Assembly: GCF_030734285.1 (NCBI RefSeq)
Contig: NZ_CP132294.1
Coordinates: 3,100,001-3,164,000 of the forward strand
From: Natronococcus sp. AD-5
GTDB taxonomy: Archaea; Halobacteriota; Halobacteria; Halobacteriales; Natrialbaceae
Length of the DNA stretch: 64,000 nucleotides
Reading direction: 5' to 3'
Position numbers and translations under genes: made by a program. This document shows positions 5,979-12,353 of the stretch, piece after piece. The notes below the pieces were generated by a model. That model saw nothing but the letters and a program-made list of their open reading frames with translations, did no database searches and was not told where the DNA came from. Each line of letters opens with the position of its first letter. Within the stretch, counting starts at the first letter, position 1.

Positions 5979-6527
5979 ATGACCCACCGAGTGACGGTCT
6001 CGCTGGACGACGACGCTCGCGCGGCCCTCGAGACGCTCGGCGCCGAGACGGGAATGGGACAGAGCGAACTCGTTCGCCGCGCGCTCTCGTTTTACGCCGC
6101 GAACTTCGAGGCCGCCCGCGAACGACCCAGCGACAACCTAGAGCAGTACTACCAGATGCTCTCCTCGGGCGAGCACGTCCTCCTCGACGTGGACTTCTTA
6201 CACGCCTTCCTCGAACACTGCTACGCCGACGGCGATCCCGATCCGGCGTTCGTCGAGGCGGCCGATCGGGTCTCGGATTACCACGCCCGCGAGTACGAGA
6301 ACCGGTTCGCCGACGTCGGCGAACTCCTCGAGTGGCTCTCCTTCTGCGGATTCCTCGAGGTCCGCCACGAGGCGGGCGGGGTTTACCACGTCGTCTTTCC
6401 CTCGGAGGCGATCCAGTGGTTCATGACGCGCTTCATCGAGCGCAGCACCGCCTCGATGCCGACGGAGATCGAGATCGAACGGGGCGTTTCGAAGACGATC
6501 GTCGCCGAGCGGGCGAGCGACGAATAG
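5979..6527 (+). CDS. Ribbon-helix-helix (CopG/MetJ-type) regulator with C-terminal extension
   Basis: A 182-residue protein. Residues 1-45 form a ribbon-helix-helix DNA-binding domain: the strand HRVTVSLDDD, then helices around LETLGAETGMGQSELVRRALSFY. The remaining 135 residues are an acidic helical domain of the kind found in haloarchaeal RHH regulators and may dimerise or sense a signal. ATG 5979 is preferred because the RHH strand begins there and because aactatacc at 5946-5954 is correctly placed as a TATA box. It ends 123 bases before the NRAMP/hydantoinase operon and is a possible regulator of it; that link is inference from position only. Confidence 0.8.
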   Translation: MTHRVTVSLDDDARAALETLGAETGMGQSELVRRALSFYAANFEAARERPSDNLEQYYQMLSSGEHVLLDVDFLHAFLEHCYADGDPDPAFVEAADRVSDYHAREYENRFADVGELLEWLSFCGFLEVRHEAGGVYHVVFPSEAIQWFMTRFIERSTASMPTEIEIERGVSKTIVAERASDE

Positions 6528-6623
6528 TCGAGTTTACGGACGGTCGCGAGAGTTCATACGACTTCACACGCCGGTCGGCCGCAGCGCGCCGAGAGCGCGT
6601 TCGTATGATCCGTTCTCAACAAC

Positions 6624-6647
6624 CCTTATGCCGCTCTCCGAGAGCGG
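6624..6647 (+). promoter_or_regulatory. TATA box plus operator-like palindrome of the NRAMP-hyuAB operon
   Basis: The TATA-like ccttatg (6624-6630) lies about 24 bases before ATG 6651. It is immediately followed by a perfect inverted repeat, ccgctct-ccg-agagcgg (6631-6647), filling the space between TATA box and start codon. An archaeal repressor bound there would block preinitiation-complete assembly or initiation. The binding protein is unknown; the neighbouring RHH regulator is one candidate. Confidence 0.5.
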
Positions 6648-6650
6648 TGT

Positions 6651-7871
6651 ATGCGTACATCCAACATGGGTCTCATCGACAGGCTGAAAGCAGTCGGCCC
6701 GGGGGCGCTCGTCGCGGCGGCGTTCGTCGGCCCGGGGACCGTGACGACCGCGAGCGTCATCGGCGCGGAGTACGCGTACCTGCTGATCTGGACGATCGCG
6801 TTCTCGATTCTCGCGACGATCGTCCTCCAGGAGATGAGCGCGCGCCTCGGGCTGATCACGAAGGAGGGGCTCGGTGAAGCATTTCGAGACGAGTTCTCGA
6901 ACCCGATCGCGAGGGGTGCGACCGTCGTGCTCGTCGTGAGCGCGATCGGGATCGGGACGGCGGCGTTCCAGACCGGCAACATCGTCGGCGGCGCCGCCGG
7001 CCTGTCGACGATCACCGGCGTCAGTGAGAACGTCTGGGGGCCGCTCATCGGCCTCGTCGCCGCCGGCCTGCTGTGGACGGGGAACTACCAACTGATCGAG
7101 CGAGTGTTCGTCGGTCTCGTGGTCGTCATGGGACTTGCGTTCGTGCTCAACGCGATCGTGGTCCGGCCGGACCTCGGCACGCTCGGCGGCGGTCTCGTCC
7201 CGACGGTGCCCGAGGGCTCGGCGTACCTGATCGCCGGCCTCGTCGGAACCACCGTCGTCGGCTACAACCTGTTCCTGCACGCGAGCACCGTCCAGGAACG
7301 GTGGGACGGAGCGAGCGATCTGGCGGAGTGTCGCACCGACACGATCGCGATGATCGCCGTCGGCGGGATCATCACGGCCTCGATCGTGGTCACGGCCGCC
7401 GCGGTGTTCCCCGAGGGGACCCAGATCACCGACGTCGGCGAGATGGCGGACCAGCTCGAGCCGGTCTTCGGCGGCTACGCGCTCACGTTGTTCGCGATCG
7501 GCCTCTTCGCGGCCGGCTTTACGAGCGCGATGAGCGCGCCGCTGGCCGGCGCCTACGCGACCGCCGGCGCGCTCGGCTGGGACCGCGACCTGAAGTCGAC
7601 CCGGTTCCGGGCGGTATGGGGGACGATCCTCGGCGTCGGCATCGTCTTCTCCGCGCTCGACTACAACCCGGTCGAGGTGATCGTCTTCGCGCAGGTGGCC
7701 AACGGCCTCCTGCTCCCGATCCTCGCCGTCTTCCTCATCTCCGCGATGAACAACGACGACCTGCTCGGCGAGTACACCAACAGCGCGCTGCAGAACCTCC
7801 TCGGCGGGCTCGTCACGCTCGTCGTGATCGGCATCGGCGTTCAGACGCTCTACGACGTTCTGGTACTCTAA
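6651..7871 (+). CDS. NRAMP-family transporter lacking the canonical metal-binding motifs
   Basis: A 406-residue membrane protein with about 11 TM helices and overall NRAMP (LeuT-like fold) sequence. Canonical NRAMP metal transporters carry DPGN in TM1 and a Met-containing MPH motif in TM6. Here TM1 reads GPGT at residues 27-30 (AAAFVGPGTVTT) and the TM6 region reads VVGYNLFLHAS (from residue 202). The metal-coordinating Asp, Asn and Met are therefore absent while the fold markers NLFLH and VQERW remain. It is separated by 6 bases from hyuA, so the likely cargo is a substrate of that pathway (hydantoin, 5-oxoproline or a related imide) rather than Mn2+/Fe2+. An alternative start is ATG 6666 (MGLIDRL). 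Family confidence is high; substrate is inference. Confidence 0.82.
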   Translation: MRTSNMGLIDRLKAVGPGALVAAAFVGPGTVTTASVIGAEYAYLLIWTIAFSILATIVLQEMSARLGLITKEGLGEAFRDEFSNPIARGATVVLVVSAIGIGTAAFQTGNIVGGAAGLSTITGVSENVWGPLIGLVAAGLLWTGNYQLIERVFVGLVVVMGLAFVLNAIVVRPDLGTLGGGLVPTVPEGSAYLIAGLVGTTVVGYNLFLHASTVQERWDGASDLAECRTDTIAMIAVGGIITASIVVTAAAVFPEGTQITDVGEMADQLEPVFGGYALTLFAIGLFAAGFTSAMSAPLAGAYATAGALGWDRDLKSTRFRAVWGTILGVGIVFSALDYNPVEVIVFAQVANGLLLPILAVFLISAMNNDDLLGEYTNSALQNLLGGLVTLVVIGIGVQTLYDVLVL

Positions 7872-7877
7872 GCACGA

Positions 7878-9974
7878 ATGAACGACGCACACGACACACC
7901 GGAGAGACGAACAGCACCGAACCACGCCACTTCGGCGGTGACGGACGGCGGTACGGCCGCCGACCCGAGCGGCACCCGAATCGGCGTCGACGTCGGCGGC
8001 ACCTTCACGGACGTCGCGCTGTCGGTCGACGACAGCCTCGTCACGGCGAAGGTTCCCACGACCGCCGATCAGCACGTCGGCGTGCTCGAGGGGATCGCGA
8101 AGGCCTGCGAGCGGGCGGATATCGACCCAGCCGAGATCGACGCCTTCGCCCACGCGATGACCGTCTCGGTCAACGCCCTGCTCGAGCGCGGCGGCGCCCG
8201 AACAGCTCTGGTGACCACCGAGGGGTTCCGCGACGTCCTCGAGATCGGCCGCCAGGACCGGCCGGACCTGTACGACCTCGAAGCCGAGAAACCGGACCCG
8301 CTCGTCCCGCGACGACGGCGCTTCGAGGTCGACGAGCGGACCACCGCCGAGGGCGTCGAGCGACCGGTCGACCCCGAAGCGATCCGAGGGCTCGCGGGGA
8401 CCCTGCGGGAGCGGGACGTCGAGAGCGTCGCGATCTGCCTGCTGCACGCCTACGCCGATCCCGAGAACGAGCGCCGCGTCGCCGAAATCCTGCGCGAGGA
8501 ACTCGAGGTTCCGGTGTCGGCCTCCCACGAGGTGCTCGCGGAGTTCCGCGAGTTCGAGCGCACGTCGACGACGGCCGTCGACGGCTACGTCCGGCCCGCG
8601 ATCGATCGCTACGTCGGCCGGCTGGTCGACGAAGCAACCGAGCGGGGGATTCCGGCGCCGCGGATCATGCAGGCCAACGGCGGGACCGCCGACCCCGAAA
8701 CGGTTCGCGAGCACGCCGTGACGACGACCCTCTCAGGGCCGGCCGCGGGCGTCGTCGGCGCCGCCGCGACCGTCGGCGACGAGGACGTCGAGGGGCTCGT
8801 CACGTTCGACATGGGCGGCACCTCGAGCGACGTGAGCCTCGTCCGGGACGGCGAGGCGGAACGGACGACCGACGCCGAGATCGACGGGCTGCCGATCCGG
8901 ACGCCGATGGTCGACGTCAACACCGTCGGCGCGGGCGGCGGCTCGATCGCCTGGGTCGACGCCGGCGGCGCCCTTCGAGTGGGGCCGCGGTCGTCGGGCG
9001 CCGAACCCGGCCCCGCCTGCTACGGCCGCGGCGGGACGGAGCCGACCGTGACCGACGCCAACGTCGTGCTTGGCTACATCGGCCCCGAGACGGCGCTGGG
9101 CGGCGAAATGACCCTCGACGTCGAGGCGGCCCGCGACGCCCTCGAGCGCCTCGCGAACGAGGCCGACCTCGAGAGCGCGCTCGAAGCGGCTCGCGGCGTC
9201 TACCGGGTTGCAAACGCGACGATGACCCGCACGATCAGGTCGGTGACCGTCGAGCGCGGCCACGATCCCCGCGAGTTCGCGCTGGTCGCCTTCGGCGGCG
9301 CCGGCCCGATGCACGCCGCGGCGCTGGCCGAGTCGCTCGAGGTCGACCGCGTCGTCGTCCCGCGGCCCGGCGGCGTCCTCTCCGCGTTCGGGCTGCTCGC
9401 GGCCGACGAGAGCTACGACGCCGCCCGGACCGTCCGAACCCCGCTCGCCGAGGCCGATCCGGCGAATCTCGAGAGCGTCTACGACGACCTCGTCGCGGAC
9501 GTACTCGCAGACGCCTCCGCCCCCGAAGCGGCCTGGGTCGAACGCGCGGCCGACTGCCGGTACGCCGGCCAGAGCTTCGAGCTGACCGTCCCGGTCGACG
9601 GGTCGTTCGATCCGGACGCGGTCGGCGAGCGGTTCCACGCCGCCCACGAGCGGGCCTACGGCTACCGGATGGGCGAGGCGGTGGAGGTCGTCACCCTCCG
9701 CACGTCGGCGACCGTCGAGGGTGCATCGCCCACCGTTCGCCACGCCGGTTCCGGCGACGCGCGAATCGGAGCGCGGGAGGCGCAGTTCCCCGGCTACGGT
9801 GCACGGGAGACGGCCGTCTACGATCGCGACCGGCTCGAGCCCGGAACGACCGTCTCCGGACCCGCGGTTCTCGAACAGGCTGAGAGCACGACCGTCGTTC
9901 CGCCGTCGTGGACGGGCGAGGTGCTCGAAGACGGAACGCTCGTCATGACACAGAATAAGGACCAGAACCAATGA
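7878..9974 (+). CDS. hyuA: Hydantoinase/oxoprolinase subunit A (HyuA)
   Basis: A 698-residue member of the HyuA/5-oxoprolinase N-terminal family. An N-terminal extension of about 33 residues precedes the first nucleotide-binding strand GVDVGGTFTDVAL. Further signatures are GLVTFDMGGTSSDVSLV, NTVGAGGGSIAWVDAGG and GAEPGPACYGRGG. With HyuB it normally forms an ATP-dependent amidohydrolase that opens five-membered cyclic amides (5-oxoproline, N-methylhydantoin) or, in the related acetone/acetophenone carboxylases, activates a ketone. The sequence alone does not settle the substrate. Its stop overlaps the start of hyuB by four bases (ATGA), implying translational coupling. Confidence 0.9.
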   Translation: MNDAHDTPERRTAPNHATSAVTDGGTAADPSGTRIGVDVGGTFTDVALSVDDSLVTAKVPTTADQHVGVLEGIAKACERADIDPAEIDAFAHAMTVSVNALLERGGARTALVTTEGFRDVLEIGRQDRPDLYDLEAEKPDPLVPRRRRFEVDERTTAEGVERPVDPEAIRGLAGTLRERDVESVAICLLHAYADPENERRVAEILREELEVPVSASHEVLAEFREFERTSTTAVDGYVRPAIDRYVGRLVDEATERGIPAPRIMQANGGTADPETVREHAVTTTLSGPAAGVVGAAATVGDEDVEGLVTFDMGGTSSDVSLVRDGEAERTTDAEIDGLPIRTPMVDVNTVGAGGGSIAWVDAGGALRVGPRSSGAEPGPACYGRGGTEPTVTDANVVLGYIGPETALGGEMTLDVEAARDALERLANEADLESALEAARGVYRVANATMTRTIRSVTVERGHDPREFALVAFGGAGPMHAAALAESLEVDRVVVPRPGGVLSAFGLLAADESYDAARTVRTPLAEADPANLESVYDDLVADVLADASAPEAAWVERAADCRYAGQSFELTVPVDGSFDPDAVGERFHAAHERAYGYRMGEAVEVVTLRTSATVEGASPTVRHAGSGDARIGAREAQFPGYGARETAVYDRDRLEPGTTVSGPAVLEQAESTTVVPPSWTGEVLEDGTLVMTQNKDQNQ

Positions 9975-11635
9975 ACGCGAATCGGACCACCACCGACGAC
10001 GGAATCGACCCGGTCACCCTGGAAGTGCTGCGCAACCAGCTCGAGAGCGTCGCCGAGGAGATGGGCCAGACCCTGATCCGCGGGGCCTACTCGCCGAACA
10101 TCAAGGAGCGCCGCGACTGCTCGACGGCGCTGTTCGACGCCGAGGGGCGGATGATCGCCCAGGCCGAACACATCCCGGTCCACCTCGGGGCGATGCCGGA
10201 GGCGGTCGACGCCGTCCGCGAGTACGATCCCGAGCCCGGCGACGTGTTCGTCCTCAACGACCCGTTCGCCGGCGGCACCCACCTGCCGGACGTGACGATG
10301 GTGTCGCCGATCGCCCCCGCGGCCGAAGCGACGGGCGACGAGGACCGAGCCGACCGCGAGATCGTCGGCTACGCCGTCTCGCGCGCCCACCACGCCGACG
10401 TCGGCGGGATGGCCCCCGGCAGTATGCCGGCCGGCGCCCGCGAGATCTACCAGGAGGGACTCCGGCTGCCGCCGACCCGCCTCGTCGAGGACGGCGAGAT
10501 CCGCGAGGACGTCCGGGCGCTGCTGCTCGCGAACGTCCGCAATCCGCGCGAGCGCCGCGCCGACCTTCGCGCACAGCTGGCGGCGAACGACCGCGCCGCG
10601 GACCGACTCGCCGCGCTGTTCGACGAGCACGGCCGAGACACCGTCCTCGAGGGCTTCGAGGCCGTGATCGGCTACTCGGCCGAGCGAATGCGCGATCAGG
10701 TGCGGGACCTGCCCGACGGAACTTACGAGGCGACGGACGTCCTCGAGGGCGACGGCATCACGGACGAAGATGTCGAGATCGCGGTGGCGGTAACCGTCGA
10801 CGGCGAGGCGGTCGAGGTCGACTTCGCGGGGACGGCCGACCAGCTCGAGGGGAACCTCAACGCGCCCCTCGCGGTCGCGAAGAGCGCCGTCTACTTCGTC
10901 GTGCGCTGCGTCACGGACCCCGAGATCCCGCCGAACCACGGCTGTTACGAGCCCGTGAGCGTGCGCGCACCCGACGGCTCCCTCCTGAACCCGAACCCGC
11001 CCGCGGCCGTCGTCGGCGGAAACGTCGAGACCAGCCAGCGCGTCACGGACGTCGTCTTCGCCGCCCTCGCGGCCGCCGCGCCCGAGCGCGTCCCCGCCCA
11101 GAGCCAGGGGACGATGAACAACCTGACCGTCGGCGCCCGCGACGGTTCGTTCACCTACTACGAGACTATCGGCGGCGGGTTCGGCGCCCGGGCCAACGCC
11201 GACGGGATGGACGGCGTCCAGGTCGGGATGACGAACACGCTCAACACGCCCGTCGAGTCGATCGAGACGGAGTACCCGCTCCGCGTCGAGCGCTACGCCC
11301 TGCGACCCGACAGCGGCGGCCGCGGCGCGTTCCGGGGCGGCCTCGGCCTCGAGCGCTCCGTCACCGTCGAGAAAGACGCGACCGTCTCGCTGCTGACCGA
11401 GCGCCGCCGGCACGCGCCGAGCGGCGTCGCCGGCGGGGAGGCCGGCGCCCGCGGGGAGAACCTGATCGACGGCGAGTCGATGCCCGCGAAGACGACCGTC
11501 GACGTCGGTGCCGGAACGACGGTCACGGTCCGGACGCCGGGCGGCGGCGGTCACGGCGACCCCGCCGAGCGCAACCCGGAGGGGCTCGAGGAAGATCGCG
11601 CCGACGAGAAGATCACGTCGACGGACGATGACTGA
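9971..11635 (+). CDS. hyuB: Hydantoinase/oxoprolinase subunit B (HyuB)
   Basis: A 554-residue HyuB-family subunit. Landmarks are [20 protein letters not shown] near the N terminus, the run around [41 protein letters not shown] and [14 protein letters not shown], and the C-terminal glycine-rich [10 protein letters not shown]. The partner of HyuA, it supplies the amide-opening half of the complex, acting in the cytoplasm. The start overlaps the hyuA stop by four bases; the 3' end overlaps the next gene by eight bases. The Cys-rich C-terminal end seen in some carboxylase subunits is absent, which leans towards a hydantoinase/oxoprolinase role. Confidence 0.9.
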
Positions 11636-12353
11636 GACGGAGCCCGATCGACGCACACGGCTCGGGCTGGTCGTCCCCTCCTCGAACACCACGGCGGAGC
11701 CGGAGCTTCGCCACCACGGCCCCGGAGACGCGACCGTTCACGCGGCGCGGATGGCCCTCGAGTCCGTCACCGTCGACGAACTCGACGAGATGAGTCGCGA
11801 CGCGGTTCGCGCGGCGGAACTGCTCGGCCACGCCGACGTCGACGCGGTCGCCTACGCCTGCACGACCGGCAGCCTGATCCACGGGCCGGGGTTCGACGCC
11901 GAACTCGAGCGGAACTTGGAAGACGCGGCGGGCGTCCCCGCCGTCGCGACCGCCCGCTCGGTGTGTCGGGCGCTCGAGGCGCTCTCGGCCGACCGGATCG
12001 CCGTCGCCACGCCCTACACCGCGACGCTCGACGAGAAGGAGCGGGAGTTTCTCGAGGCGGCCGGCCTCGAGGTCGCGGCGATCGACGGTCGCGGGATCGA
12101 GGCGAACACGGAAATCGGGGCGCTCGAGGCCGCGGACGCGCGACGACAGGTGCTGGAGCTCGGCGATAGACTCGAGTCCGACGTCGACGCCGTCTTCGTC
12201 TCCTGTACGAACTACCGGTCGCTCGCGGCGGTCGCGGACCTCGAGGCCGAACTCGGCGTCCCGGTCGTCACGAGCAACGGCGCGACGCTGTGGGACGTCT
12301 GCCGAGCGGCCGACGTTTCGGTCGACGCGCCGAGCGCGCTCTTCGAACCGTAA
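11628..12353 (+). CDS. Maleate cis-trans isomerase-like / Asp-Glu racemase superfamily enzyme
   Basis: A 241-residue enzyme of the aspartate/glutamate/hydantoin racemase superfamily, closest in motif order to maleate isomerase and arylmalonate decarboxylase. It has an N-terminal RLGLVVPSSNTTAEPE loop, a first active-site Cys in AYACTTGS and a second in VSCTNYRS. The two-cysteine arrangement fits 1,1-proton-transfer or cis-trans isomerase chemistry. ATG 11628 ([10 protein letters not shown]) overlaps the hyuB stop by eight bases, so this is the last gene of the operon. In this context racemisation or isomerisation of a hydantoinase substrate or product is plausible; the actual substrate is unknown. 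Confidence 0.8.
   Translation: MTETEPDRRTRLGLVVPSSNTTAEPELRHHGPGDATVHAARMALESVTVDELDEMSRDAVRAAELLGHADVDAVAYACTTGSLIHGPGFDAELERNLEDAAGVPAVATARSVCRALEALSADRIAVATPYTATLDEKEREFLEAAGLEVAAIDGRGIEANTEIGALEAADARRQVLELGDRLESDVDAVFVSCTNYRSLAAVADLEAELGVPVVTSNGATLWDVCRAADVSVDAPSALFEP

Follow-up and report, generated by a model that had tools for sequence, protein, structure and literature searches.

The analysed stretch of the Natronococcus sp. AD-5 genome (64,000 nt, positions 3,100,001 to 3,164,000 of contig NZ_CP132294.1; hereafter the window) contains a set of genes in which a transporter of the NRAMP fold precedes hyuA and hyuB, encoding the two subunits of a hydantoinase/5-oxoprolinase-family enzyme, and a gene from the Amdase family (Table 1). 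Six nucleotides separate the stop codon of the transporter gene (7871) from the start of hyuA; the genes after it overlap, hyuB sharing 4 nt with hyuA and 8 nt with the Amdase-family gene. This spacing bears out a preliminary description of the locus. The same description placed the start of the transporter at 6624; the start codon is the ATG at 6651 (possibly 6666), and 6624 falls inside a conserved promoter-like stretch (CTCAACAACCCTTAT). The unit it delineated, from the transporter to the isomerase, holds, but the CopG/RHH-type gene and the tandem TTCAYA repeat upstream had been overlooked. We propose that the locus is probably an uptake-and-opening unit for 5-oxoproline (pyroglutamate); all functional claims made below rest on linkage and sequence.

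Table 1. Genes and sites of the locus, in positions of the window.
Feature	Position	Strand	Evidence
CopG/RHH-type DNA-binding protein, 182 aa, C-terminal part unassigned; probable local regulator	5979..6527	+	Pfam RHH_1, 31.4 bits
Tandem repeat TTCATACGAC-TTCACA (two TTCAYA units, 10-bp period); candidate operator for the RHH protein	6553..6568	+	
NRAMP-fold transporter, metal ligands lost (GPGT / TTVVGYNLFLHA); proposed 5-oxoproline importer	6651..7871	+	Pfam Nramp, model, motifs, trees
HyuA, ATP-binding subunit of the hydantoinase/5-oxoprolinase-family enzyme	7878..9974	+	Pfam Hydant_A_N and Hydantoinase_A
HyuB, metal-site subunit of the HyuAB enzyme	9971..11635	+	Pfam Hydantoinase_B, 696 bits
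Amdase/maleate-isomerase-superfamily enzyme, 241 aa; putative accessory racemase or isomerase	11628..12353	+	PF17645, 125.8 bits

The 406-aa product of the transporter open reading frame belongs to the SLC11/NRAMP superfamily, scoring 324.6 bits against the Pfam model Nramp (PF01566; cut-off 29.8). Its first and sixth transmembrane helices (TM1 and TM6) contain, respectively, FVGPGTVTTAS, with GPGT at residues 27–30 (numbering from the 6651 start codon), and LVGTTVVGYNLFLHAS. In alignments with DraNramp, EleNRMT, and BfraNramp, the TM1 aspartate and asparagine are replaced by glycine and threonine, and ATVMPH of TM6 is replaced by TTVVGY, i.e., VGY stands for MPH; the acidic position of TM3 (E134 of DraNramp) is N110. 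Among 49 members of the transporter clade, G27, P28, G29, V203, Y205, and N110 are all invariant, and thus the D, M, H, and E of canonical NRAMPs correspond to invariant G27, V203, Y205, and N110; the canonical combination of DPGN and MPH is absent. GPGT is also invariant among all intact haloarchaeal orthologs. The loss of DPGN and of the TM6 methionine site, asserted in the preliminary description, is confirmed by these alignments, and no conserved acidic ligand takes their place in the TM1 or TM6 site across the 49 clade members.

The AlphaFold model of the transporter (predicted local distance difference test score 92, predicted template modelling score 0.90) has helix breaks at GPGT and V203, as would be expected of unwound TM1 and TM6. 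Its best structural match is DraNramp (Z 48.6, root-mean-square deviation 2.5 over 374 residues); BfraNramp has a Z of 45.7, whereas amino-acid carriers such as AdiC (Z 30.1) are far lower. The protein hence shares the fold and the family profile of the canonical NRAMP/MntH transporters but has lost DPGN, MPH, and the TM3 glutamate. It resembles EleNRMT, a Mg2+ transporter from the SLC11 family, in being NRAMP-related with a non-canonical site, but belongs to a separate clade and lacks the TM1 aspartate. The transporter also passes the NCBIfam model NF037982, divalent metal transporter (100 vs. 50 bits). This name is probably a misannotation spreading across the whole clade; if the 5-oxoproline assignment is correct, the label “Nramp family divalent metal transporter” is a misnomer for many proteins.

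Orthologs of the transporter were found in 85 of 292 sampled haloarchaeal genomes (54–93% identity), the next NRAMPs being only about 33% identical. The sample of haloarchaeal loci comprised 60 fetched loci and the window. In 58 of these 61, representing ten family-level groups, hyuA directly follows the transporter, and hyuA and hyuB are both present in 59. In contrast, no hyuA, hyuB, pxp, Amdase, or RHH gene was found within approximately 18 kb at 12 other haloarchaeal NRAMP loci, five of them from the window's own genome. Chance adjacency of the transporter and hyuA is ruled out by this comparison (58/61 vs. 0/12), and the random gene neighbourhood that would have spoken against a functional pairing was not observed. 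As for exceptions, L075/L107 have lost hyuAB and retain the transporter and the RHH gene, with an IS6 transposase nearby, and in L079 the transporter is interrupted by TGA and hyuAB is missing; these are decaying copies of the locus. In L054, the locus is rearranged. Seven genes of the NRAMP family are present in the window's genome. Of these, the five paralogs that were examined (L035–L039) show unusual motifs in TM1 (GPAT, GPGS, GSGS, or GAGS), and none has DPGN.

A profile of the transporter clade was scanned over 84,980 species genomes, yielding at least 590 relatives, of which the best 80 were kept. The locus contains pxpA, usually together with pxpB and pxpC, for 33 of these best 80, and in 29 of the 80, from Bacteroidota, Gammaproteobacteria, and Bacillota, the transporter is followed by a pxp gene that begins at most 172 nt downstream. 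One Actinomycetota locus also has a pxp gene close to the transporter. Where the clade member has no adjacent pxp, pxpA occurs elsewhere in 19 of 20 genomes, a raw count uncorrected for how common pxpA is in the orders concerned. Two Bacteroidota loci have a different arrangement, with a single 1252-aa HyuA-HyuB fusion that starts about 20 nt past the transporter and is only 34–38% identical to HyuA and HyuB of the window. PxpABC and HyuAB are different, unrelated protein families.

A broad tree (126 rows) separates the GPGT clade from EleNRMT, the canonical NRAMPs, and a set of five GPGF-type proteins, one of them MumT, that are mostly pxp-linked; its deep branching order is uncertain owing to long branches. 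In a careful tree (75 rows), the haloarchaeal transporters form one clade (100/99) whose nearest relatives are pxp-linked Bacillota, and the hyuAB-linked Bacteroidota pair sits among pxp-linked Bacteroidota. Two partner changes are required in 200 of 200 bootstrap trees, and a single hyuAB-linked transporter clade is rejected (approximately unbiased test, p 0.028). Most probably, then, the transporter persisted while HyuAB became its partner enzyme on two occasions, once in haloarchaea and once in Bacteroidota. The loci are related and not independent, and the evidential strength lies in these two switches, not in the counts. The earlier suggestion that a branch of ligand-less NRAMPs has been paired more than once with ATP-dependent lactam-opening enzymes is thereby upheld through the pxpABC and HyuAB linkages. 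That one clade keeps its transporter while swapping two unrelated ATP-dependent oxoprolinases argues, from genome evidence alone, for an organic substrate.

The enzyme itself carries the expected family domains (PF05378 and PF01968 in HyuA, PF02538 in HyuB). HyuA keeps the phosphate and adenosine motifs (DVGGTFTD, DMGGT, GAEPGP), and in HyuB the residues D49, H104, D107, and H140 correspond in the alignment to D41, H99, D102, and H124, which are essential metal ligands of caprolactamase. With its ATP motifs and metal ligands intact, HyuAB appears to be competent. In these site residues it resembles the caprolactamase CapAB and the hydantoinase/5-oxoprolinase (OPLAH) family, but its scores for the caprolactamase models NF050156 and NF050157 (502 and 280 bits, respectively) fall far under the cut-off of 1000 for each, and a CapAB assignment was rejected. 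Membership in the family alone leaves the substrate unfixed.

The substrate is suggested by the linkage. PxpABC is the 5-oxoprolinase of prokaryotes, and 5-oxoprolinases are also found among the relatives of HyuAB; the substrate known from both families is 5-oxoproline. The transporter would import this compound via the LeuT-fold site, where Gly, Thr, Val, and Tyr occupy the positions of the Asp, Asn, Met, and His that bind metal in NRAMPs, and HyuAB would open the lactam ring with ATP, producing glutamate. Glutamate dehydrogenase genes have been inserted at the locus twice, independently, and the two are unlike each other (about 50% identical): in three Haloarcula-type loci (e.g., L212:6932-8185) the insertion precedes the RHH gene, and in L072 it lies between the RHH gene and the transporter. 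The two insertions fit glutamate as the product. The preliminary description had preferred imide or hydantoin utilisation. However, no carbamoylase, amidase, or other downstream gene is recurrent near the operon in the 61 haloarchaeal loci, and a hydantoin pathway with a carbamoylase was rejected on these grounds; together with the pxpABC coupling of the clade and the twofold occurrence of glutamate dehydrogenase, this favours 5-oxoproline. The operon is present in Haloferax mediterranei ATCC 33500 and Haloarcula hispanica ATCC 33960, cultivable haloarchaea that offer a direct test of this assignment.

Several observations count against 5-oxoproline. None of the substrate-defining NCBIfam cut-offs is reached by HyuAB. 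A full pxpABC set is also present in the window's genome, and HyuAB may therefore act on another substrate, stereoisomer, or lactam; pxpA is found in 20 other transporter-positive genomes as well (21/85 in total). The transporter is present in 21 of 37 pxpA genomes, so that the two co-occur above expectation (odds ratio 3.9, kinship uncorrected); a plain genomic replacement of PxpABC by HyuAB was accordingly rejected as the full explanation. A racemase-type gene is unnecessary for L-5-oxoproline. Position 107 of TM3 is Glu in most clade members and Gln in the window transporter. Finally, two pxp-linked NRAMP-type proteins, YcsG/MntG and MumT, are reported to raise cellular Mn.

Use of another cyclic amide (hydantoin, imide, D-5-oxoproline, or another lactam) by the operon is, in our view, rather unlikely. 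The clade would then be broad for lactams, the haloarchaeal enzyme would have shifted its substrate, and the Amdase-family protein would be a racemase, such as classical hyu operons carry. The inclusion of hydantoinases and caprolactamase in the HyuAB family is compatible with this possibility, as are the closest PDB match of HyuA, an N-methylhydantoinase, the presence of pxpA in the 21 transporter-positive genomes, and the Amdase-family gene at 45 of the 61 loci. That gene was not found in the other 16, however; the lack of a recurrent downstream gene and the glutamate dehydrogenase insertions are also unfavourable, and the association of these transporters with pxp genes elsewhere in the clade points to 5-oxoproline.

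Import of a divalent metal (Mn2+ or Mg2+) as a cofactor of HyuAB or PxpABC, as proposed for MumT and MntG, would agree with the metal requirement of HyuB and with the manganese reports; moreover, EleNRMT carries Mg2+ without the canonical motif. Yet EleNRMT keeps the TM1 aspartate that the GPGT clade has lost, and the invariance of G27, V203, Y205, and N110, with no conserved acidic residue in TM1 or TM6, makes metal transport improbable. A gene order simply inherited within haloarchaea, with no functional coupling, is hardly credible. While the sampled organisms are related and close relatives among them also have flanking clusters in common, only the core of RHH gene, transporter, hyuA, and hyuB recurs in differing surroundings, on plasmids and on chromosomes, and an analogous enzyme occupies the same position in the bacterial relatives.

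The CopG/RHH assignment of the upstream gene is based on its N-terminal domain (RHH_1, 31.4 bits vs. the cut-off of 20.5). This gene is the same-strand neighbour immediately 5' of the transporter in 51 of the 61 haloarchaeal loci, and two or three TTCAYA units with a 10-bp period lie between the two genes in 36. Forty-nine of 50 matches have the same orientation, about 75–125 nt before the transporter start. The repeat in Table 1 is the only match within the window, and the genome contains one more. No tandem repeat of this type was seen in 5,544 control tiles; the motif was defined post hoc on these same loci, but the contrast to the controls is large. Short tandem repeats suit RHH proteins, and the array is probably the operator through which the RHH protein would control transcription. 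If so, and if 5-oxoproline is the substrate, haloarchaea possess an operon for 5-oxoproline opening that has a regulator and an operator of its own.

The last gene had been described as racemase-family. An accessory function of the isomerase or racemase type remains plausible, but the protein belongs to PF17645 (Amdase; the arylmalonate decarboxylase/maleate isomerase/EutA family) and not to the canonical racemases. Residues C78, C193, N20, Y130, and N160 are kept in 44 homologues and are identical in the maleate isomerase 2xec, suggesting the same two catalytic cysteines and Asn/Tyr/Asn set; the residues after C78 differ from those of 2xec. Assignments to arylmalonate decarboxylase and EutA were rejected (118 and 107 bits vs. 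NCBIfam cut-offs of 225 and 318). We regard the protein as a putative accessory racemase or isomerase, perhaps a racemase for D-5-oxoproline or D-glutamate. Plasmid contexts of its relatives are mixed, including ABC transporters, ectoine genes, and SLC13, and give no further information.

Two NRAMP-type proteins, PxpT of C. glutamicum and YcsG of B. subtilis, are needed for 5-oxoproline use (PMC13274462), PxpT, a distant relative, being required for growth on this compound; YcsG was renamed MntG for Mn2+ import (PMC10448178). The statement in the preliminary description that ycsG adjoins the 5-oxoprolinase genes was correct, but the substrate of YcsG is disputed between these two studies. The locus in the window resembles the PxpT/YcsG-PxpABC system in that an NRAMP-family transporter adjoins an ATP-dependent 5-oxoprolinase-type enzyme; for PxpT/YcsG, genetic evidence supports 5-oxoproline uptake. 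However, the enzyme in the window is HyuAB, not PxpABC, and its transporter comes from another clade, sharing 19% identity with the YcsG model 9a52 across 387 residues, whereas identity within its own clade is at least 41%. Nor is it a member of the PxpT/YcsG/MumT-type motif clade, GPGF(L/I)TQT with GGTVGGY; five such proteins group with support 100 in a tree that left out the YcsG and PxpT sequences themselves. In a recent phylogeny, the majority of NRAMP-related groups that lack metal ligands are left “entirely uncharacterized”; YcsG/MntG belongs to one such group. Among the papers searched, none unites NRAMP, hydantoinase, and operon.

MumT of Acinetobacter baumannii, reported as a Mn importer, is likewise an NRAMP-type transporter in an operon with oxoprolinase-type enzymes, but it has GPGF and GGTVGGY and belongs to a different clade. 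Its mum operon was published as “manganese and urea metabolism”. The enzymes encoded at the mum locus (L117:4707-10911) are homologues of PxpA and PxpBC, of a putative hydro-lyase, and of biotin carboxylase, i.e., the set of a 5-oxoprolinase operon; by analogy, a 5-oxoproline role for MumT may deserve consideration. A mobilizable plasmid of Lactiplantibacillus plantarum (L116:2428-8702) also carries an entire pxp operon, accompanied by an NRAMP of the GPGF type.

At least two deeply separate clades, GPGT and GPGF/MumT-YcsG, are thus coupled to oxoprolinases. This raises the idea, which we hold to be speculative and rather unlikely, that lactam (5-oxoproline) transport is ancient in the NRAMP superfamily and that canonical metal transport could derive from organic-solute carriers instead of the reverse. 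A further non-metal branch is possibly represented on a Neorhizobium plasmid (L102:4810-7197), where a gene of the dihydrodipicolinate-synthase family is followed by one for another NRAMP-type protein that lacks the ligands (GPGN / TNFSIN).

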